Assembly: GCF_018613725.1 (NCBI RefSeq)
Contig: NZ_JAGGPS010000036.1
Location: 1 to 64,000 of the forward strand
Reading direction: 5' to 3'
Length of the DNA: 64,000 nt
Origin: Hymenobacter sp. ISL-91
GTDB taxonomy: Bacteria; Bacteroidota; Bacteroidia; Cytophagales; Hymenobacteraceae
Shown: piece by piece, positions 4,804-56,292 of the stretch
Layout: each line of letters opens with the position of its first letter
Numbering within the stretch: position 1 is the stretch's first letter
Position numbers and translations under genes: made by a program
The notes under the pieces: model-generated
Seen by the model: only the letters and a program-made list of their open reading frames with translations
Told to the model about the DNA's origin: nothing
Databases searched by the model: none

Positions 4804-7800
4804 TTGCAGGTTTCCGACTTCCTCAAGCTCTACCTCCTCGACCCCACCGTACTCACCGTGGGCGCCCGCCTCAACCCGACCACCCGCCGCTCGCTCGGCA
4901 AGGCCGCCAACGAGGACGAGGCCCCCGCCCGCCTGCACTTGCGCGGCCTGGTAGGCTCGCAGGATGCCGTGCTGGCCGCCGCGCTGCACCACAACTACCC
5001 CCAGCAGCCCCAGCTCTTCATCCTCCACGACCGCGAGGAGGCTGCCTACTTCCTGGCCGACCTCCAGCACCTGCTGCCCGACGAGGAGCCCCTGCTATTC
5101 CCCAGCTCCTACAAGCGCCCCTACGCCTTCGACGAGACGGAAAACGCCAACGTGCTCATGCGGGCCGAGGTGCTGAACCGGCTGAACTCGCGGACGTCGG
5201 GGCCTCACCCCCCAACCCCCTCTCCGGGGGGAGAGGGGGAGCCAAGCGACAAAAAGCCAGTGGCTACAACGGGTCGTCAGGCTCCCCCCTCTCCCCCCGG
5301 AGAGGGGGGCCGGGGGGGTGAGGCCCCTGGCGCCCTCATCGTCACCTACCCGGAGGCCCTGTTCGAAAAGGTGATCAACAAGAAAAGCCTGGTGGCCAAC
5401 ACGTTTATCGTGAAGGTGGGCGACCGGCTCGATGTGAACTTCATCAGCGAGATGCTGGCCGAGTACGACTTTGAGCGGAGCGACTTCGTGTACGAGGCCG
5501 GCCAGTTCGCGGTGCGCGGGGGTATCGTGGACATCTTCAGCTACGCCAACGAGTTGCCCTACCGCATCGAGCTGTTCGGCGATGAGGTAGAGACGATTCG
5601 CACGTTTGACCCCGAGAGCCAGCTGTCGGTGGAGAAGCGGCCCCAGGTGAGCATTATCCCGAACGTGCAGACCAAGCTGTTGCAGGAGACGCGGGAGGCG
5701 TTTCTGGACTTTATTCCGGGCGATACGGCCATTTGGGCCAAGGACCTGCGCCAGACGCTGGACGTGGTAACCGAGTCGTTTGAGTGGGCCGAGGCCAACT
5801 TCCAGCAGCTGCTGGCCGGGGCCGCGGGCATGCAGATTGTGAGCAAGCCGGAGGACCTGTTTGAGTCGGGCAAGAGCTTTAAGAAGCTGCTGGAGGGCTT
5901 TGCCATTGCCGAGTTCGGCAAGCGGTTCTACTTTAAGAATGCCGAGGCGTTCCAGTTCACGGCCCGGCCCCAGCCCAGCTTCAACAAAGACTTCGGGCGG
6001 CTGGTGAAGAACCTGCACGAAAACCAGCTCAACGGCTACACCAACATCATTGCCGCCGAATCGGTCAGGCAGGCCGACCGGCTGCGCACGATTTTCGATG
6101 AGCTCGACAACAACGTGCAATTCCAGCATCTGCTGCTGGGGTTGCGCGAGGGCTACATTGATGAGACGCTGCAACTGCTCGTGTACACCGACCACCAGCT
6201 GTTCGAGCGGTTCTATAGGGCCCAGGAGGGCCGCAAGTTCTCCAAGAAAAAGGCCCTCACGCTCAAGGAGCTCCGCACCCTGGTGCCCGGCGACTACGTG
6301 ACCCACCAGGACTACGGCATTGCCCGGTTTGCGGGCCTGACGCAGGTCGAAATCAACGACCGGATGCAGGAAGCCATCCGGCTGATTTACCGCGACGACG
6401 ACGTGCTGACCGTGAGCATTCACGCTTTGCACAAGATTGCCAAGTACAGCGGGGCCGAGGGCACGCCGCCCACCATGAGCAAGCTGGGCTCGCCGGAGTG
6501 GGAAAACAAGAAAAAGGCCGTCAAGAAGAAGGTGAAGGACATTGCCGCCGAGCTGATCCGGCTGTACGCCAAGCGCAAAACCGCGCCCGGCCACGCCTTC
6601 GCCCGCGACTCGTTTATGCAGGCCGAGCTCGAATCGAGCTTCATTTACGAAGACACGCCCGACCAGGGCAAGGCCACCGAAGACGTGAAGCACGACATGG
6701 AGCAGCCCCACCCCATGGACCGGCTGATCTGCGGCGACGTGGGCTTCGGCAAGACGGAAATAGCCATCCGGGCCGCGTTTAAGTCGGTGGCCGATGGCAA
6801 GCAGGTGGCCGTGCTCGTGCCCACCACCATTCTGGCCATGCAGCACTACAAAACGTTTCGGGAGCGGCTGGCCAACCTGCCCGTGACGGTGGAGTACGTC
6901 AACCGCTTCAAATCAACCAAGCAGATAAAGGAGACGCTGGGCCGGGTGGCCGAGGGCAAAACCGACATCCTCATTGGCACCCACCGCCTCACCAACAAAG
7001 ACATCAAGTTCAAGGACCTGGGCCTGCTCGTGATTGATGAGGAGCAGAAGTTCGGCGTGAAAACCAAGGACAAGCTCAAGGAGCTGAAGGTGAACGTCGA
7101 CACGCTCACGCTCTCGGCCACGCCCATTCCGCGCACCCTGCACTTCTCGCTGATGGGTGCCCGCGACCTGAGCGTGATTGCCACGCCGCCGCCCAACCGC
7201 CAGCCGGTGCAAACCGAGCTGCACGTGTTCGACGAGCTGCTGATTCGCGACGCCGTGGCCCGCGAAATCAAGCGCGGCGGGCAGGTGTTTTTCGTGCACA
7301 ACCGCGTGAAGGACATCGAGGAGCTGGCCGGCATGATTGTGCGCCTCGTGCCCGACGCCCGCGTGACCTACATCCACGGGCAGATGGAGGGCGACAAGCT
7401 CGAAAAGCGCATGATGAAGTTCGTGGACGGCGACTACGACGTGCTGGTGAGCACCAACCTCATCGAAAGCGGCCTCGACATTCCCAACGCCAACACCATC
7501 ATCATCAACCGCGCCCACCTGTTTGGCCTGAGCGATTTGCACCAGATGCGGGGCCGCGTGGGCCGCTCCAACAAAAAGGCCTACTGCTACCTGCTCACGC
7601 CCCCGGTGGCCGGTTTGCCCTCCGATGCCCGCAAGCGCCTGAGCACGCTCGAAGAATTCTCCGACCTCGGCGACGGCTTCAAAGTGGCCATGCGCGACCT
7701 CGACATCCGGGGCGCGGGCAACCTGCTGGGCGGCGAGCAGTCGGGCTTTATCAACGATTTGGGCTTCGAAACCTACCACCAGATTCTGGATGAGGCCGTG

Positions 7801-8355
7801 ACCGAGCTCAAGGAAACCGAGTTCCGCGACCTGTTCCTCGGCGACCCCACCCAGCGCCTGCAGGAAGCCGCCAAAACGGCCGGCGTGCAGCAGTGCAACA
7901 TCGAAACCGACCTGCAGGTGCTCATCCCCGACGCCTACGTGAGCAACGTGTCGGAGCGCCTGCAGCTGTACAGCAAAATGGACCGCGCCAAGGGCCCCGA
8001 GCAGCTGCACAAGCTGCTGGCCGGCATGACCGACCGCTTCGGCCCGCTGCCGCCCGAAGTGGAGCAGCTGGCCGACATCGTGCGCCTGCGCTGGCAGGGC
8101 CGCCACGCCGGCTTCGAGCGCCTGAGCTACAAGAAAAACGTGCTCAAGGGCTACATCCCGGCCGAAAACAACGAGGCCTACTTCCAGGGCGACACCTTCG
8201 GCAACATCCTCTCCTACGTGCAGACCCACCCCAACTCGTCCAGCATGAAGGAGCGCAAGCAGCAGCTCGTCTTCAGCATCAGCAACGTGCCCAGCGTGGC
8301 CGCCGCCAAGCGCGTGCTCAGCGAGCTAGGCAGCGAGGAGCCGGTGGGGGTGTAG
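4804..8355 (+). CDS. mfd: Transcription-repair coupling factor Mfd, with in-frame repeat insertion
   Basis: 1183 aa. Mfd is a DNA translocase that removes RNA polymerase stalled at lesions and recruits UvrA. Visible parts: a UvrB-like N-terminal region (about 1-400); a CarD-like RNA-polymerase-interacting domain at about 489-560 (VPGDYVTHQDYGIARF); Walker A GDVGFGKTEIA at about 644; DEEQ at about 745; the SATPIPRTL motif; motif VI HQMRGRVGRS; and a C-terminal TRCF domain. The start is a TTG at 4804 (reads MQVSDFLKLY), chosen because the conserved N-terminus begins here and no ATG is near. Residues about 132-175 are not Mfd-like and are encoded by a GC-rich palindrome (PHPPTPSPGGEGEP), an in-frame 43-codon insertion. 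The gene is otherwise intact and monocistronic, with a terminator at 8401. Confidence 0.95.
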   Translation: MQVSDFLKLYLLDPTVLTVGARLNPTTRRSLGKAANEDEAPARLHLRGLVGSQDAVLAAALHHNYPQQPQLFILHDREEAAYFLADLQHLLPDEEPLLFPSSYKRPYAFDETENANVLMRAEVLNRLNSRTSGPHPPTPSPGGEGEPSDKKPVATTGRQAPPSPPGEGGRGGEAPGALIVTYPEALFEKVINKKSLVANTFIVKVGDRLDVNFISEMLAEYDFERSDFVYEAGQFAVRGGIVDIFSYANELPYRIELFGDEVETIRTFDPESQLSVEKRPQVSIIPNVQTKLLQETREAFLDFIPGDTAIWAKDLRQTLDVVTESFEWAEANFQQLLAGAAGMQIVSKPEDLFESGKSFKKLLEGFAIAEFGKRFYFKNAEAFQFTARPQPSFNKDFGRLVKNLHENQLNGYTNIIAAESVRQADRLRTIFDELDNNVQFQHLLLGLREGYIDETLQLLVYTDHQLFERFYRAQEGRKFSKKKALTLKELRTLVPGDYVTHQDYGIARFAGLTQVEINDRMQEAIRLIYRDDDVLTVSIHALHKIAKYSGAEGTPPTMSKLGSPEWENKKKAVKKKVKDIAAELIRLYAKRKTAPGHAFARDSFMQAELESSFIYEDTPDQGKATEDVKHDMEQPHPMDRLICGDVGFGKTEIAIRAAFKSVADGKQVAVLVPTTILAMQHYKTFRERLANLPVTVEYVNRFKSTKQIKETLGRVAEGKTDILIGTHRLTNKDIKFKDLGLLVIDEEQKFGVKTKDKLKELKVNVDTLTLSATPIPRTLHFSLMGARDLSVIATPPPNRQPVQTELHVFDELLIRDAVAREIKRGGQVFFVHNRVKDIEELAGMIVRLVPDARVTYIHGQMEGDKLEKRMMKFVDGDYDVLVSTNLIESGLDIPNANTIIINRAHLFGLSDLHQMRGRVGRSNKKAYCYLLTPPVAGLPSDARKRLSTLEEFSDLGDGFKVAMRDLDIRGAGNLLGGEQSGFINDLGFETYHQILDEAVTELKETEFRDLFLGDPTQRLQEAAKTAGVQQCNIETDLQVLIPDAYVSNVSERLQLYSKMDRAKGPEQLHKLLAGMTDRFGPLPPEVEQLADIVRLRWQGRHAGFERLSYKKNVLKGYIPAENNEAYFQGDTFGNILSYVQTHPNSSSMKERKQQLVFSISNVPSVAAAKRVLSELGSEEPVGV
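5199..5327. repeat. GC-rich palindromic repeat inserted in mfd
   Basis: Left arm 5199-5243 and right arm 5280-5327 are inverted copies of one repeat (core CCTCACCCCCC followed by CCCTCTCCGGGGGGAGAGGG), with about 36 bp between them. The inner arm ends run toward an AGCCTGACGAC motif, also seen at 50219-50230 and, as GCCAGACGAC, at 54790. The unit is 129 bp, an exact multiple of three, so mfd stays open. It is the same family as the repeats flanking the nuclease gene in purQ. Confidence 0.85.
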
Positions 8356-48947: not shown

Positions 48948-50156
48948 CTAGCCTTCGTAACGCAGTTCGCCTGCGCCCACCTGCAGCGTCACGCCCGGCT
49001 CGGCCGTGATGCGGCCCGCCACCTGGGCCCGGTAGCCGCTGCCGCGCAGGCTGGCCACCACGGCGTCGGCTTGGGCTTCGTCGGTGACGAGCAGCATGCC
49101 GTTGCCCATGTTCCAGTAGAGGTAGGCTTCTTGGGGCGTGATGCCGGCCAGGTCGGCGAGCTGCTGCATGGCGGGCAGCGGCTCGAACAAGTTGCTTAGC
49201 TCGGCGCCAACCCCATTTTTGAGCACCCGCTTGAAGTTGTCGGCCAGGCCACCGCCGGTGATGTGGGCGGCGGCGTGCAGCGGCAGGCCCGCATCGAGCA
49301 CCGTCGCTACGCCCGGCGAGTAGATGAGCGAAGGCGCCAGCATGACCTCACCCCAGGTTTTTGGGTGAGGAATTTTGAATTCCTCGGCGGTGTCACTGGA
49401 CTGGCTGGCAGCGTCGGTAGCTTTCGTTACGCCCACATTGCCGGACTCACCGCCGGCAATTCCTAATTCAAAATTCAAAATTCCTAATTCGCCGTAAGGC
49501 GCCAGGTGCCACTTTTCGCCGAAAGCTTGGGTGAGGGCGCGGCGGGCCAGCGAGTAGCCGTTGGAGCGGAACGAGGGCGAGTGCAGGGCCACCACGGCCT
49601 GGCCGGCGCGCACGTTGGCGCCGCTCAGGGGGCGCTCCAGGCTCGGGTGCAGCACCCCCACGGCCGTCGAGCACCAGTTGAAATTCATGCGGGCACCGGG
49701 GTAGCCGCCGATGCGGTTGCCGAGTTCGGCAATTTCGCCGCCCGTTACGGCTAGCTGGCTGAACTGGGCCGCGTCGTGCAGGCCGCGCATCAGCTCATCG
49801 ACTACGGTGTAGTCGAGCGTGTTCACGTCGATGATGTTGGAAAGATTGGTGGGCACGAAACCGGCCACAATGAGGTCGTCGGCTACCATGGCAATCAGGT
49901 CGTAGCCCAGCGTGTCGTAGCGGTCGAGGCGCTCGGCCACTTCAATCTTGGTCCCGATGCCGTCGGAGCCGATGCCCAGCCGCTCGTTGCCAAACCGGAT
50001 TTCATTGGAGAAGCCCCCGGCCAGGTCGCGGGCCGGCTCGCCGGGCTTGCCGGCGCGGGTAGCGAAGGTTTTCTGGGCCCACTCGTAGGCGTTACGCGAG
50101 GCGTTGTTGCCTTCTTCGATGGAGTAGCCGGCGGTGGCTTTGATGGATTCGTTCAT
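48948..50156 (-). CDS. purM: Phosphoribosylformylglycinamidine cyclo-ligase with in-frame repeat insertion
   Basis: 402 aa from ATG 50156 (MNESIKATAGYSIEEGN). PurM (AIR synthetase) closes the imidazole ring with ATP in purine synthesis step 5. Conserved parts: GSDGIGTKIEVAERL, YDLIAMVADDLIVAG, GGEIAELGNRIGGY, HSPSFRSNGYSLARRAL, HITGGGLADNFKRVLKNGVG and YLYWNMGNGMLLV. Between HLAPYGEL and KTWGEVMLAPSL (residues about 221-263) there are about 43 residues (ILNFELG ... EEFKIPHP) that are not PurM-like and are encoded by an AATTTTGAATT-type inverted repeat. The frame is kept, so the protein may still work. Last gene of the pur/pyr cluster. Confidence 0.93.
   Translation of the reverse strand: MNESIKATAGYSIEEGNNASRNAYEWAQKTFATRAGKPGEPARDLAGGFSNEIRFGNERLGIGSDGIGTKIEVAERLDRYDTLGYDLIAMVADDLIVAGFVPTNLSNIIDVNTLDYTVVDELMRGLHDAAQFSQLAVTGGEIAELGNRIGGYPGARMNFNWCSTAVGVLHPSLERPLSGANVRAGQAVVALHSPSFRSNGYSLARRALTQAFGEKWHLAPYGELGILNFELGIAGGESGNVGVTKATDAASQSSDTAEEFKIPHPKTWGEVMLAPSLIYSPGVATVLDAGLPLHAAAHITGGGLADNFKRVLKNGVGAELSNLFEPLPAMQQLADLAGITPQEAYLYWNMGNGMLLVTDEAQADAVVASLRGSGYRAQVAGRITAEPGVTLQVGAGELRYEG
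49369..49490. repeat. AT-rich-core inverted repeat inserted in purM
   Basis: Arms 49369-49392 (AATTTTGAATTCCTCGGCGG) and 49448-49490 (complement with repeated CAAAATTC units) around about 55 bp. It translates as part of the purM insertion. A different family from the GC-rich repeats. Confidence 0.75.
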
Positions 50157-50165
50157 GCGGTGGGA

Positions 50166-50311
50166 CCCCACCCCCCGGCCCCACTCTGCTCAATCCGCAG
50201 AATCCTACGGGAGAGGGGGAGCCTGACGACGGCAGCACAGGGTCAGTTTTTAAAGACTAGAAACCTAAAATCAGATTCCCTCTCCCAGAGGGGAGGGGTT
50301 GGGGTGGGGTT
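50166..50311. repeat. GC-rich palindromic repeat between purF and purM
   Basis: Left part 50166-50230 (CCCCACCCCCCGGCCCC ... GAGAGGGGGAGCCTGACGAC) is the same family as the mfd and purQ repeats, but with about 22 extra bases inside the hairpin. A degenerate opposite arm lies at 50278-50311 (CCCTCTCCCAGAGGGGAGGG). It fills the gap between the purF stop and the purM start. Confidence 0.75.
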
Positions 50312-51821
50312 AGTGCTCCGTCGGGGCGGGGGCCTTGGCACTCACCGAAGGCACGAGGCCACCGGCGTCCTTCTTGCGGTCGATGCGGTGGCTTTCGCGC
50401 TCCTCCTGGATGTGGCCCAGGTATTTGGTGATGTCGCCGGTGGGATAGTTGCCGGTGAAGCAGGCAAAGCAACCGCCGCCGTGGCCCTTGTCCTCGGCAA
50501 ACAGCTCCTGTAGGTCTTCTACTGATTGGTAAATCACCTTGTCGGCCTCGATGTAGCGGCAGATTTCCTCCTCGGTGTAGTTGGCCGCAATCAGCTCGGT
50601 GCTCATGGCCATATCGATGCCGTAGATGCAGGGCGCGACGATGGGCGGGGCGCTGCTGATAAAGTACACCTCCGAAGCGCCCGCCTCGCGCAGAATCCGC
50701 ACGATGCGCCGCGAGGTGGTGCCGCGCACGATACTGTCGTCGACGACGGCCACCTTTTTGCCCTCCACGAACTCGCGGATGGGGTTGAGCTTTTTGCGCA
50801 CGATGTCCTCGCGGCCGGCCTGGGAGCTGACGATAAACGAGCGGCCCATGTGGTTGTTTTTCACCAGCGCCCGGCGGTAGGGCACGCCAATGGCCTCGGC
50901 CAGCCCCGACGCCGCGAAGTAGCCCGACGAGGGCACGTCAATCACCATATCAGGCTGGATGCCCGACTCAATCACCTTGCGGGCGAGTATTTTGCCCAGC
51001 CGCACCCGCTCGCGGGCTACCAGCCGGCCATTAATGGTGGAGTCTTCGCGGGCGAAATAGATGTACTCGAACACGCAGAACGCCTTCGGCAGGCTATAGG
51101 GGTTCTTGCGGTGCACTTCAAAGTTCTGGTCGATGAAGATGGCCTGCCCCGGCCCCACATTCTCCACGAACTCGAAGCCCAGGTAGTCGAAGCAGGTGCT
51201 TTCGGAAACGAAGGCGTACACCGGGCCGGCCTCCGTCTGGCGGCGGCCCAGCACCAGCGGCCGGATGCCCAGCGGGTCGGTGAAGGCCAGCATGCCGTGG
51301 CCGGCAATGATGGTAACGGTGGCGTAGGCGCCCTTCACCAGCTCCTGGGTGGTTTCGACGGCATCAAAAATATCGACCACCGACAGCGCATCGAGGTTTT
51401 TGAGGCGCAGCTCGGAGGCGAAGGTGTACATGATGAGCTCCAGGTCGTTGCTGGTTTTGGGCAGCACGTGGTACTTTTCGTGCAGGCGCTTGGCGGCCGA
51501 GCGGAAGTTGATGACGTTGCCGTTGTGCACCATGGCCAGCCCGAACGGGTAGCTGGTGGTGAACGGCTGGGCCAGCTCGGCATCACTGGAACCCTGGGTG
51601 GTGTAGCGGGCGTGGCCGATGCCGATGTTGCCCTTGAGCTTCTTGAGCTGCTTGGGTCGGAACACGTCGGAAATCAGCCCGTTGCCCTTGCACAGGTGGA
51701 AATTACCGTCGAAGGTGGCCATGCCGGCCGCATCCTGCCCCCGGTGCTGGAGCGCCGTCAGGCCAAACACGATGTCGTGGGCAACATCCTCGGGGCCGTA
51801 AAAACCTACAATTCCGCACAT
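50310..51821 (-). CDS. purF: Amidophosphoribosyltransferase
   Basis: 503 aa. First committed step of purine synthesis: PRPP plus glutamine to phosphoribosylamine. It begins MCGIVGFYG; the Cys at residue 2 is the N-terminal nucleophile after Met removal, with no propeptide. The glutaminase half has GHARYTTQG and the LAMVHNGNVINF loop. The PRTase half has IDVPSSGYFAASGLAEAIG, GRSFIVSSQAGREDIVRKKL and the PRPP loop VAVVDDSIVRGTTSRRIV. The C-terminus is a Bacteroidota-type extension (GHGGGCFACFTGNYPTGDIT). Its stop touches the palindrome preceding purM. Confidence 0.95.
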   Translation of the reverse strand: MCGIVGFYGPEDVAHDIVFGLTALQHRGQDAAGMATFDGNFHLCKGNGLISDVFRPKQLKKLKGNIGIGHARYTTQGSSDAELAQPFTTSYPFGLAMVHNGNVINFRSAAKRLHEKYHVLPKTSNDLELIMYTFASELRLKNLDALSVVDIFDAVETTQELVKGAYATVTIIAGHGMLAFTDPLGIRPLVLGRRQTEAGPVYAFVSESTCFDYLGFEFVENVGPGQAIFIDQNFEVHRKNPYSLPKAFCVFEYIYFAREDSTINGRLVARERVRLGKILARKVIESGIQPDMVIDVPSSGYFAASGLAEAIGVPYRRALVKNNHMGRSFIVSSQAGREDIVRKKLNPIREFVEGKKVAVVDDSIVRGTTSRRIVRILREAGASEVYFISSAPPIVAPCIYGIDMAMSTELIAANYTEEEICRYIEADKVIYQSVEDLQELFAEDKGHGGGCFACFTGNYPTGDITKYLGHIQEERESHRIDRKKDAGGLVPSVSAKAPAPTEH

Positions 51822-54717: not shown

Positions 54718-54750
54718 GTAGTGGAGCGTTGATGAGTTCGTTCGGTTGGT

Positions 54751-54801
54751 TGCCTCACCCCCCGGCCCCCTCTCCAGGGGGAGAGGGGGTGCCAGACGAC
54801 A
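54751..54801. repeat. Inverted terminal repeat flanking the DUF559 nuclease (outer 3' copy)
   Basis: GTTGCCTCACCCCCCGGCCC, then a hairpin CCCTCTCCAGGGGGAGAGGG and GTGCCAGACGAC. It ends one base before the stop of the purQ-DUF559 fusion. The inverse copy at 55209-55260 is nearly identical. Confidence 0.85.
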
Positions 54802-56292
54802 TTAGTTCTTTAAAGAATGCTGGAGGAGAGCTTCGCTGATTTTTTGCAACACAGTAGGCAGCTGGTGAAGTACCTGACCATTGGTAAAGCGAAGTACATG
54901 GTAGCCTACGCCCTCCAGCTCGTAGGTGCGACCAGTATCGTATTCAGCTTGCCCGGTTTCGTCATGTACCTCACCGTCCACCTCTACAATCAGGTTGTGT
55001 TGGGTACAGATGAAGTCTACAATGAATTTTCCGATGGCATGTTGCCGCCGAAATTTGGCGTCATCTAGCTGCCGGTTTCGCAACGCCTGCCAAAGGACAT
55101 CTTCGGCTGGAGTGGGCTCGCGCCGCATTTCTCCACTAAAGGATTTCAGTCGCTCAAACCACTGCTTTTTATCTGCAGTCAATCGTGGCCGGTTGCCTAA
55201 CTCTTCAGCGCCAGGCTCCCCCTCTCCCCCTGGAGAGGGGGTCGGGGGGTGAGGCAACGAGGCCACGTGCTCCACGATATTCCGGAACAGCTTCAGTCCG
55301 TCACCATCCTCGCTCAGGTCCGGGTTAGCGCGTTTGCGGCGGGCCCAGTCGGGGTGGTTATATAAGGAGAGGAACGCTTCGGGATGGGGCATCAGGCCGA
55401 ACACGCGGCCGGTGGTGTCGGTCAGGCCGGCGCAGTGCAGGTCGGCACCGTTAGGGTTGTGCGGGTAGTTGGCCGTGGGCGCGCCGGCCTCATCGAGGTA
55501 GCTGAGGCAGTTGAGGCCCCGGGCTTCGATGGCGGCGGCCGTTGCGGGGCTGCCGATGAGCAGGCGGCCCTCACCGTGGCGCACGGGCACTTCCAGCGTG
55601 TCGAGGCCGCGCAGGAAAGGCGTGTTGCTTTTCGGGTTGACTTGCAGGCGCACCCACCGGTCTTCGTAGCGGCCCGAGGCATTGTGGGTCAGCGTTACTT
55701 CAGGCGTCACGGTACCGGCCAGGTCGGGCAGCAGGCCCAGTTTCACCAGCACCTGGAAGCCGTTGCAGATGCCGAGCACGTGCTTGCCACCGGCCACGAA
55801 CTCCCGGATATCGTCGAGCAGCGTGCGGCCCTGGTCATTTTTGCGGTAGCGCAGCTTGTTGGCCAGCACCACGCCCGAGCCCAAATCGTCGCCGAACGAG
55901 AAGCCGCCGGGGAAGTTGAGGATGTCGTAGTCGTGGATGCTGACGTGGCCGTGCAGCACCTGATTGAGGTGCACCACGGTGGCCTCGGCGCCCGCCAGCC
56001 GGTAAGCCGCCGCAAATTCTTCCTCGCAGTTGATACCAAAGCCGGTCAGAATGAGCGCCTGAACCTTGGCGTTGTCGGTTGTCAGTTGCGAGTTGCCAGG
56101 CTGTGCTTCCGGGCTGCTTTTCAGCGGCTCGTTAGACTCGTGGCCGCCATCGACGCTTTTGTAGCCGGGCAGCAGAATGTTGCCGTCGCCGTCCACCATT
56201 TCGTAGCCGGGGTCCTCGGGCCGGGGGCGTGGGGGCAGGTTCAGGTCAGGCAGATTTGGGTGCTGATCTGGTTGTTGCTGGTCGTCTTCCAT
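54802..56292 (-). CDS. purQ: PurQ glutaminase fused in frame to a DUF559 (Vsr-like) endonuclease
   Basis: 496 aa from ATG 56292, 5 bp after the purL stop. Residues about 76-344 are PurQ, the glutaminase subunit of FGAM synthase: KVQALILTGFGINCEEEF, GICNGFQ with nucleophile Cys176, and MPHPE with His303/Glu305. Residues 1-75 are an odd extension with proline-rich and repeat-like sequence (NLPPRPRPEDPGYEMVDGDG, SQLTTDNAK). From residue about 346 a repeat-encoded PHPPTPSPGGEGEP leads into a DUF559 domain (about 386-490): MRREPTPAEDVLWQALRNRQ, KFRRQHAIGKFIVDFIC, LIVEVDGEVH. PD-(D/E)XK residues Asp426, Glu437 and Asp439 are intact. Elsewhere PurQ ends near residue 345. Whether the fusion is made, cleaved or harmless is unknown. 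Confidence 0.9.
   Translation of the reverse strand: MEDDQQQPDQHPNLPDLNLPPRPRPEDPGYEMVDGDGNILLPGYKSVDGGHESNEPLKSSPEAQPGNSQLTTDNAKVQALILTGFGINCEEEFAAAYRLAGAEATVVHLNQVLHGHVSIHDYDILNFPGGFSFGDDLGSGVVLANKLRYRKNDQGRTLLDDIREFVAGGKHVLGICNGFQVLVKLGLLPDLAGTVTPEVTLTHNASGRYEDRWVRLQVNPKSNTPFLRGLDTLEVPVRHGEGRLLIGSPATAAAIEARGLNCLSYLDEAGAPTANYPHNPNGADLHCAGLTDTTGRVFGLMPHPEAFLSLYNHPDWARRKRANPDLSEDGDGLKLFRNIVEHVASLPHPPTPSPGGEGEPGAEELGNRPRLTADKKQWFERLKSFSGEMRREPTPAEDVLWQALRNRQLDDAKFRRQHAIGKFIVDFICTQHNLIVEVDGEVHDETGQAEYDTGRTYELEGVGYHVLRFTNGQVLHQLPTVLQKISEALLQHSLKN
54805..55208 (-). mobile_element. Candidate DUF559 nuclease cargo bounded by inverted GC-rich repeats
   Basis: The DUF559 part of the fusion lies between inverted copies of the same repeat (54751-54801 and 55209-55260), giving a unit of about 510 bp. 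The domain is full length with active-site residues intact. There is no transposase. The unit interrupts the 3' end of purQ without breaking its frame. Treating it as mobile is an inference. Confidence 0.6.
55209..55260. repeat. Inverted terminal repeat flanking the DUF559 nuclease (purQ-side copy)
   Basis: Reads as the reverse complement of 54751-54801 over about 45 bp (CCCTCTCCCCCTGGAGAGGG then GGTGAGGCAAC). It encodes the PHPPTPSPGGEG linker of the fusion on the minus strand. Confidence 0.85.

Follow-up and report, generated by a model that had tools for sequence, protein, structure and literature searches.

The window, i.e. the whole 64,000-nucleotide stretch of Hymenobacter sp. ISL-91 DNA that was analysed, carries on its minus strand a purQ gene whose reading frame passes without interruption into a nuclease domain bounded by inverted palindromes, and related palindromes lie at two further places. 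The features relevant to the present analysis are the following.

54802–56292, minus strand: purQ–DUF559 open frame, from an ATG at 56292 to a stop at 54802–54804 (496 amino acids plus stop)
55267–56067, minus strand: PurQ GATase_5 domain (Pfam E 9.1e-76)
54826–55152, minus strand: DUF559 (Vsr-like PD-(D/E)XK) nuclease domain with its acidic residues intact (Pfam E 5.3e-35)
54749–55258, minus strand: complete element of about 510 bp at the purQ 3′ end, made up of palindrome, DUF559, and inverted palindrome
55209–55258, no strand assigned: upstream arm, with LPHPPTPSPGGEGEP as its in-frame translation and a BoxC/TM motif at 55218–55254
54749–54798, no strand assigned: downstream inverted arm, 3′ of the stop codon; BoxC/TM motif at 54753–54789
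5203–5323, plus strand: nuclease-less motif pair (5203–5239 and 5284–5323), in frame in mfd (4804–8355)
50276–50308, plus strand: single TM-like motif separating two genes presumed to be purM (48948–50171) and purF (50310–51821)

The frame between the ATG at 56292 and the stop at 54802–54804 has no internal stops. As the initial annotation of this DNA had described, PurQ continues in a single frame through a GC-rich repeat into a complete DUF559 domain, the peptide LPHPPTPSPGGEGEP read from the palindrome starting at residue 346. The PurQ tail scores 120 bits against PF04480 (the DUF559 / YcjD family; curated cut-off 20.6), and the acidic residues singled out earlier, Asp426, Glu437, and Asp439, are all present. 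An inverted copy of the palindrome does lie 3′ of the stop, with the two 50-nt arms (54749–54798 and 55209–55258) being 92% complementary. The frame had been thought to run through this downstream repeat to 54751, and this has to be corrected, as it ends at 54802, just ahead of the repeat. With the motif at 50276–50308 lying between the apparent purF and purM, the pur genes of the window hold motifs at two places. In Mfd, the in-frame nuclease-less palindrome pair (GPHPPTPSPGGEGEP...PPSPPGEGGRGGEA) precedes the UvrB-interaction domain.

Among 120 genomes of the genus, DUF559 is present in 103 and PurQ in 118, and PurQ 3′ ends were read in 110 of the latter, the other 8 not being included. A DUF559 tail follows in frame in thirty of these ends, in one more (G064) the element is out of frame, with a stop within the repeat, and the remaining 79 have a short tail that contains no DUF559 and no palindrome; a palindrome matching a simple pattern accompanies 28 of the 30 fusions, the exceptions being G096 and G027. 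The initial annotation had named, as the outcome that would speak against it, related genomes having the same tail on every PurQ with diverged, non-repeat flanks, and the 79 bare and 28 palindrome-bearing fused ends show a different picture. With 30 of 110 related 3′ ends showing the fusion, its origin from a single sequencing frameshift or artefact is ruled out. The fusions include several palindrome types and several insertion points, and when 82 DUF559 domains are placed in a tree, those from purQ group into five clusters, requiring 5 changes of label, at least 3 of them forced by well-supported branches, where a label change may be either a gain or a loss, so that three changes could reflect one gain and two losses. 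A single vertical capture at purQ is disfavoured on these grounds. The description of a repeat–nuclease–repeat unit of about 510 bp lying in frame in purQ thus stands, and its description as a single event in which purQ captured the nuclease is too narrow, given the five clusters of purQ copies, with their differing repeat types and insertion points, and given that the same unit is found in frame in other genes and other phyla.

Filled and empty sites can be compared among close relatives at the same place in purQ, where G000, G001, and G059 share one element type, G080 and G035 carry another, and G114, a relative with 94% identical PurQ, is empty. The flank-to-flank distance, 20-bp margins included, is 119 bp in G114 vs about 564 bp in G000, G001, and G059. 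The native PurQ tail and the element flanks share too little for the break in G114 to be placed, hence neither a clean empty-site junction nor a target duplication is definable at purQ, which counts against DUF559 being the partner of these repeats. The repeat-free PurQ tails of two further genomes, G086 and G061 (loci L117 and L132), retain the peptide VASLP(Q/H) as found in filled alleles, possibly as a scar of element loss.

The repeats themselves consist of a pyrimidine-rich arm, a loop, a purine-rich arm, a 3-nt linker (e.g., CCG or CTA), and a third, purine-rich strand GGGGTGAGG. Both arms in the window read CCCCCTCTCC..GGAGAGGGGG-(C/T)CG-GGGGGTGAGG, which matches type B in the published list of BoxC/PIT/TM elements. 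The latter, described by Holder et al. (2015) as a G/C-rich motif known from more than 260 bacterial genomes (PMC4666352), likewise show a CCCTC(T/G)CC arm, a loop, a GG(A)GAGGG arm, a 3-nt linker of CCG or TTA type, and a third strand GGGTGAGG; inverted pairs occur both in part of the published elements and here. By its sequence, the repeat flanking DUF559 has the BoxC/PIT/TM intrastrand-triplex architecture, the triplex being a predicted one. It has to be noted that the published elements are intergenic in E. coli MG1655, whereas the present ones adjoin DUF559 and lie in frame inside genes. In E. coli, the same report describes the TM sites as having no transposase or integrase remnants or mobility functions nearby, and names no nuclease partner, its main text containing neither “endonuclease” nor “Vsr” (0 occurrences each; PMC4666352). 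No report tying DUF559 or Vsr-like nucleases to these repeats was found among the papers that searches of the open PubMed Central library listed.

Another family with a comparable layout is that of the CGTC-tagged REPs, including the Rickettsia palindromic elements, which are described as intragenic, with many in repair genes (Di Nocera et al. 2013, PMC3733652), and which “apparently lack a dedicated transposase”; the main text of that report does not contain the string “DUF” (PMC3733652). The similarity extends to head-to-head dimers and to insertions inside genes, many of them genes of repair, and a CGTC tag is found near 50 of 105 stem ends vs 8.3 expected, a few nucleotides off the stem. 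Stems of CGTC-REPs start with complementary A-T residues, however, whereas the present stems are C-rich, and the tails differ as well. Owing to this difference in stem composition, the present repeats were not filed as CGTC-REPs despite the head-to-head layout and the partial tag.

The association of the motif with the nuclease was evaluated by searching for the three-part BoxC/TM architecture within 300 bp of DUF559. From 102 DUF559 loci, 82 genus loci were retained by counting identical domain DNA once and dropping two at contig ends, and the motif was found at 81 of them (71 on both sides; shuffled, 1). In a set of named genomes, drawn from the best 80 of at least 511 relatives and reduced to 79 loci by one short flank, 56 carry the motif, 28 on both sides (distal 2/72, shuffled 1), and the 23 in which it was missed count against the association. 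Of 12 other loci from the phylum, 11 likewise have it nearby, vs 1 of 12 at distal positions, and so do 9 of 12 loci from a plasmid collection, where the motif of L213 may be due to chance. The inverted pairing gives a similar result: a score of at least 16 was reached by 66 of the 79 named-genome loci (again from the best 80 of at least 511 relatives) vs 0/79 shuffled and 0/72 distal, and a score of at least 20 by 73 of the 82 genus loci, where shuffles reach 15.5 at most. Arms swapped between genus loci still score at least 20 in 161 of 246 swaps, as expected of a shared repeat family. Four of the 12 plasmid-collection loci have no inverted pair above shuffles, which again counts against the association. 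The association crosses phylum boundaries, and within the genus repeat and nuclease co-vary, with a Mantel rho of 0.42 between their distances (p 0.001, 73 loci) and of 0.28 (p 0.001) for pairs in different host classes only. In two cyanobacterial loci, L210 and L216, the palindromes flanking DUF559 belong to another family (CCCCCAATTCTGGGGG / CCCCTAAATCCCC), which suggests that nuclease lineages pair with different repeat families.

At the level of whole genomes, the median number of repeat sites is 22 in the 103 genomes with DUF559 vs 4 in the 17 without (p 0.001). Two repeat-rich genomes, G039 (66 sites) and G103 (45), give no DUF559 match and count against the partnership; another nuclease or a recent loss of DUF559 may be involved there. 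Across the phylum, a strict palindrome pattern matches 9 of 247 genomes, DUF559 occurs in 138, and both occur in 5, so that co-occurrence fails at the genome level with this pattern. The pattern is, however, too strict to be informative, since 11 of the 12 phylum DUF559 loci have the motif nearby and yet none of those 12 genomes matches it.

In the genome of Hymenobacter sp. ISL-91 itself, 15 sites match a 20-nt palindrome pattern (reversed control, 0), and within the window an 18-nt palindrome core (up to 3 mismatches) gives 4 matches vs 0.12 expected. The 15 sites correspond to 10 places, 8 of them pairs with outer ends typically reading GCCTCACCCCC..GGGGGTGAGGC, one of which brackets the DUF559 of purQ. 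DUF559 has two matches in this genome, the purQ tail and a metH tail. The search for the same unit elsewhere in the genome, which had been proposed at the outset as a check, thus returned a second DUF559 fused in frame to the C-terminus of methionine synthase (MetH) between like repeats, one translated before it and an inverted copy behind; the Pfam scan of this fusion type was done on a relative (L165).

The other seven of the eight paired places hold no nuclease, and they favour a model in which the palindromes are moved in trans, by a RAYT/Y1 transposase or by host recombination, with DUF559 being a frequent passenger. Consistent with that, Y1_Tnp is found in 83 of the 120 genus genomes, and the number of repeat sites correlates with it (median 29 with vs 9 without, p 0.0002), which counts against DUF559 as the partner. 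Because of this correlation, 28 Y1 loci were examined for the motif, two of them without an ORF and three without the downstream flank, and the BoxC/TM motif was present at none of the 28. Of the 23 loci that offer an ORF together with flanking sequence on both sides, 17 are bordered by inverted repeats of their own and of a different kind, several of them GTAG-tagged. The loci in question (L341–L350 and L353–L359) contain RAYT-like Y1 genes with repeats such as GGTAGTAGCGCGAACTTTGTAGTTCGCG. Moreover, genomes with no Y1_Tnp match may be rich in sites (G002, 52; G004, 42; G055, 52), and it is a single gene, DUF559, that recurs beside the palindromes in several phyla, its type co-varying with the repeat type. 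Movement in trans as the explanation of the palindromes therefore appears unlikely to us, and RAYT in particular is disfavoured as the partner of these repeats. Given the absence of the motif at the 28 Y1 loci and the own repeats at 17 of 23, the genus seems to hold two parallel systems, one of RAYT with GTAG palindromes and one of DUF559 with C-rich triplex palindromes. The latter resembles REP-RAYT (Y1/HUH) systems in having palindrome pairs, one flanked enzyme gene, and many gene-less pairs, and differs in that the enzyme is unrelated and the RAYT-like genes of the genus carry other palindromes.

DUF559 is still labelled in Pfam as a family of unknown function. Its residues D64, E75, and D77, which correspond to Asp426, Glu437, and Asp439, are the same in all 52 aligned members. 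The nearest solved structure is 3hrl (sequence E 1.5e-39, fold Z 17.9), followed by the homing endonuclease I-Bth0305I (3r3p; sequence E 7.6e-6, Z 13.2), and the Vsr-like character named in the initial annotation is borne out by a fold match to Vsr with Z 10.6 over 98 residues. Compared with Vsr, the fold is the same and the difference lies in the flanking palindromes; compared with the EDxHD homing endonucleases exemplified by I-Bth0305I, sequence and fold are related and a small nuclease is likewise encoded inside host genes, but DUF559 is palindrome-bounded and the host frame is read through rather than spliced. An intein test found no Hint or splicing domain among the Pfam matches of the fusions scanned. 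After removal of pairs with undefined or zero dS, dN/dS in purQ clade A is approximately 0.02 for DUF559 vs 0.18 for PurQ (17 of 28 pairs usable, dS near saturation), and in clade B 0.04 vs 0.16 (3 and 6 pairs, respectively; 3 of 6 usable). These ratios show, at the level of sequence comparison, that the nuclease is under purifying selection. In the literature, the YcjD profile is described as picking up Vsr at 1e-5 (PMC1189080), a 2007 survey called the nuclease-domain fusions, DUF559 included, in the TrmJ-type methyltransferase family surprising (PMC1829167), and for the Caulobacter DUF559 protein VsrA a mismatch-repair role has been proposed, with links to methylation and the SOS response (PMC12907096).

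In-frame insertions of DUF559 are not restricted to purQ. Within the genus, MetH carries the domain in frame at its end and a RecQ-type helicase at its start, and two further kinds of gene contain it internally, namely a UvrD-type helicase gene (addA-like) and a PDDEXK_1 (addB-like) gene; the addA, addB, and recQ labels are those we presume from Pfam matches and sequence motifs. The 82 genus loci comprise 29 in purQ, 9 in recQ, 6 in addA, 4 in metH, 3 in addB, and 31 with the nuclease alone, a tally that is not a frequency, as the loci were picked partly for long frames. In 7 of the 9 internal helicase/nuclease-gene insertions, the host frame runs about 300 residues past the domain, up to the end of the sequence read at each locus; in the other two (L172 and L033), it ends 123 and 48 residues past the domain, soon after the second repeat, and these count on the opposing side. 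In the rest of the phylum, MetH, LeuRS, HsdR, and a type ISP enzyme contain DUF559 internally, and one frame combines it with an N6/N4 DNA methylase. Proteobacterial frames unite it with PriA (internally), MeaB, a SpoU methylase, a RecF/SMC-type protein, and a FolC-like Mur ligase. In one Sphingomonas locus (L214), the suf operon contains a DUF559 gene with flanking palindromes, placed between sufB and sufC.

The MetH interdomain linker was compared in 28 genomes, of which 12 contain an in-frame nuclease-less palindrome pair, 12 are short, 2 are long without a repeat, and 2 are frame-broken; the exact junction of the insertion in this linker is not definable from the alleles compared. G000 and G003, the PurQ proteins of which are 98% identical, have differing repeat types in the same linker, and such differing element types at one place, in purQ as in the MetH linker, fit gene conversion between elements. 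The two frame-broken cases, L323 (metH of G114) and L335 (metH of G061), are broken near the repeat-bearing linker, perhaps by faulty element loss or by assembly error.

Several of these hosts being DNA-repair genes, and the nuclease having a Vsr-like fold and being under strong purifying selection, one may alternatively regard DUF559 as a host-useful repair or resolving nuclease, acting in very-short-patch repair or in the removal of triplexes and hairpins, the fusions being ordinary domain accretion; the ties of VsrA to methylation and SOS in Caulobacter (PMC12907096) would agree with that. The palindromes, however, also adjoin insertions in other hosts, on both sides in PurQ, MetH (L376), and MeaB (L253), on one side in two LeuRS loci, and as an inverted repeat beside DUF559 in the FolC-like ligase. 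For PurQ, MetH, LeuRS, MeaB, and the FolC-like ligase, we know of no role in repair. The presence of the domain is, in addition, patchy, and close relatives differ in element type at the same site, so that an explanation by host repair is in our view quite improbable.

That the open frame is real and the tail merely a translated accident behind the PurQ core, with the fusion neither made nor selected, can be largely dismissed, as 30 of 31 purQ insertions are in frame over five tree clusters, the linkers vary in length with the frame kept, and 26 of 28 fusions have no in-frame ATG between palindrome and domain, against which it may be set that the native tail behind the PurQ core varies among genomes and that in 21 of the 28 a free nuclease could start from one or more in-frame ATG, GTG, or TTG codons, just 7 being devoid of every such codon before the domain. 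Internal initiation may thus occur in those 21 fusions, and the full-length fusion protein is a putative one.

E. coli offers a setting in which gene and motif are found together. In the strain of L360, a canonical BoxC lies about 170 bp behind ycjD, a DUF559 gene, and L366 has an altered one; a second palindrome overlaps the ycjD end, L361 having it intact and both L360 and L366 in degenerate form. By its map position, this BoxC is presumably no. 9 of the published list, and the chance of a BoxC lying so near a given gene is estimated at about 0.003 from 18 published sites and the size of the genome. Its sequence equals that of nos 9, 16, 19, and 22 in the published list of 23 (PMC4666352). 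The motif is one-sided and altered in one of the three ycjD strains read, which counts against DUF559 as the partner. ycjD matches over at least 80% of the query in 3360 of the 5323 E. coli genomes with a match, and an interpretation of its presence and absence as excision was rejected; because an efflux operon occupies the place in the four ycjD-less loci read, these are no empty sites.

Taken together, it is our view that the PurQ tail is probably a minimal selfish element, composed of a Vsr-like nuclease between inverted BoxC/PIT/TM palindromes, in which DUF559 serves as the dedicated homing-type partner of the repeats and confers a putative mobility. The recurrent in-frame placement in core genes suggests that DUF559 is the missing partner that spreads the palindromes. 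In the mechanism we propose, DUF559 would cut or nick DNA at or near the palindromic/triplex sites, following which repair of the break would copy the palindrome-bounded element, gene-bearing or gene-less, into the cut. As several reading frames of the palindrome are free of stops, in-frame insertions at gene ends or in interdomain linkers would survive, and the nuclease would then be translated as part of the core protein; its in-frame place in core genes would ensure that it is expressed and guarded from loss. The nuclease-less palindrome pairs in mfd and metH would be the non-autonomous relatives of the DUF559 element.

A broader form of this model, to which we give equal weight for and against, would see here a widespread class of unrecognised minimal mobile elements, in which a Vsr-like nuclease recognises BoxC/triplex palindromes, spreads itself and the nuclease-less pairs by homing-type gene conversion, and owes its expression and persistence to being read through after landing in frame in essential and repair genes. 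This nuclease would supply the enzyme missing for the BoxC/PIT/TM repeats, and perhaps also for further palindromes that lack a RAYT, among them the CGTC-REPs and the Rickettsia elements. The frames of PurQ, MetH, LeuRS, and PriA, which hold whole nuclease domains unspliced, bear on annotation and on the tolerance of selfish DNA in coding sequence. If DUF559 indeed moves the repeats, the spread of RAYT-less palindromes would become testable in E. coli, where ycjD and BoxC occur together, and two orphans would be joined, a BoxC/PIT/TM motif reported to have no mobility functions nearby in E. coli and a DUF559 family that Pfam lists without a function.
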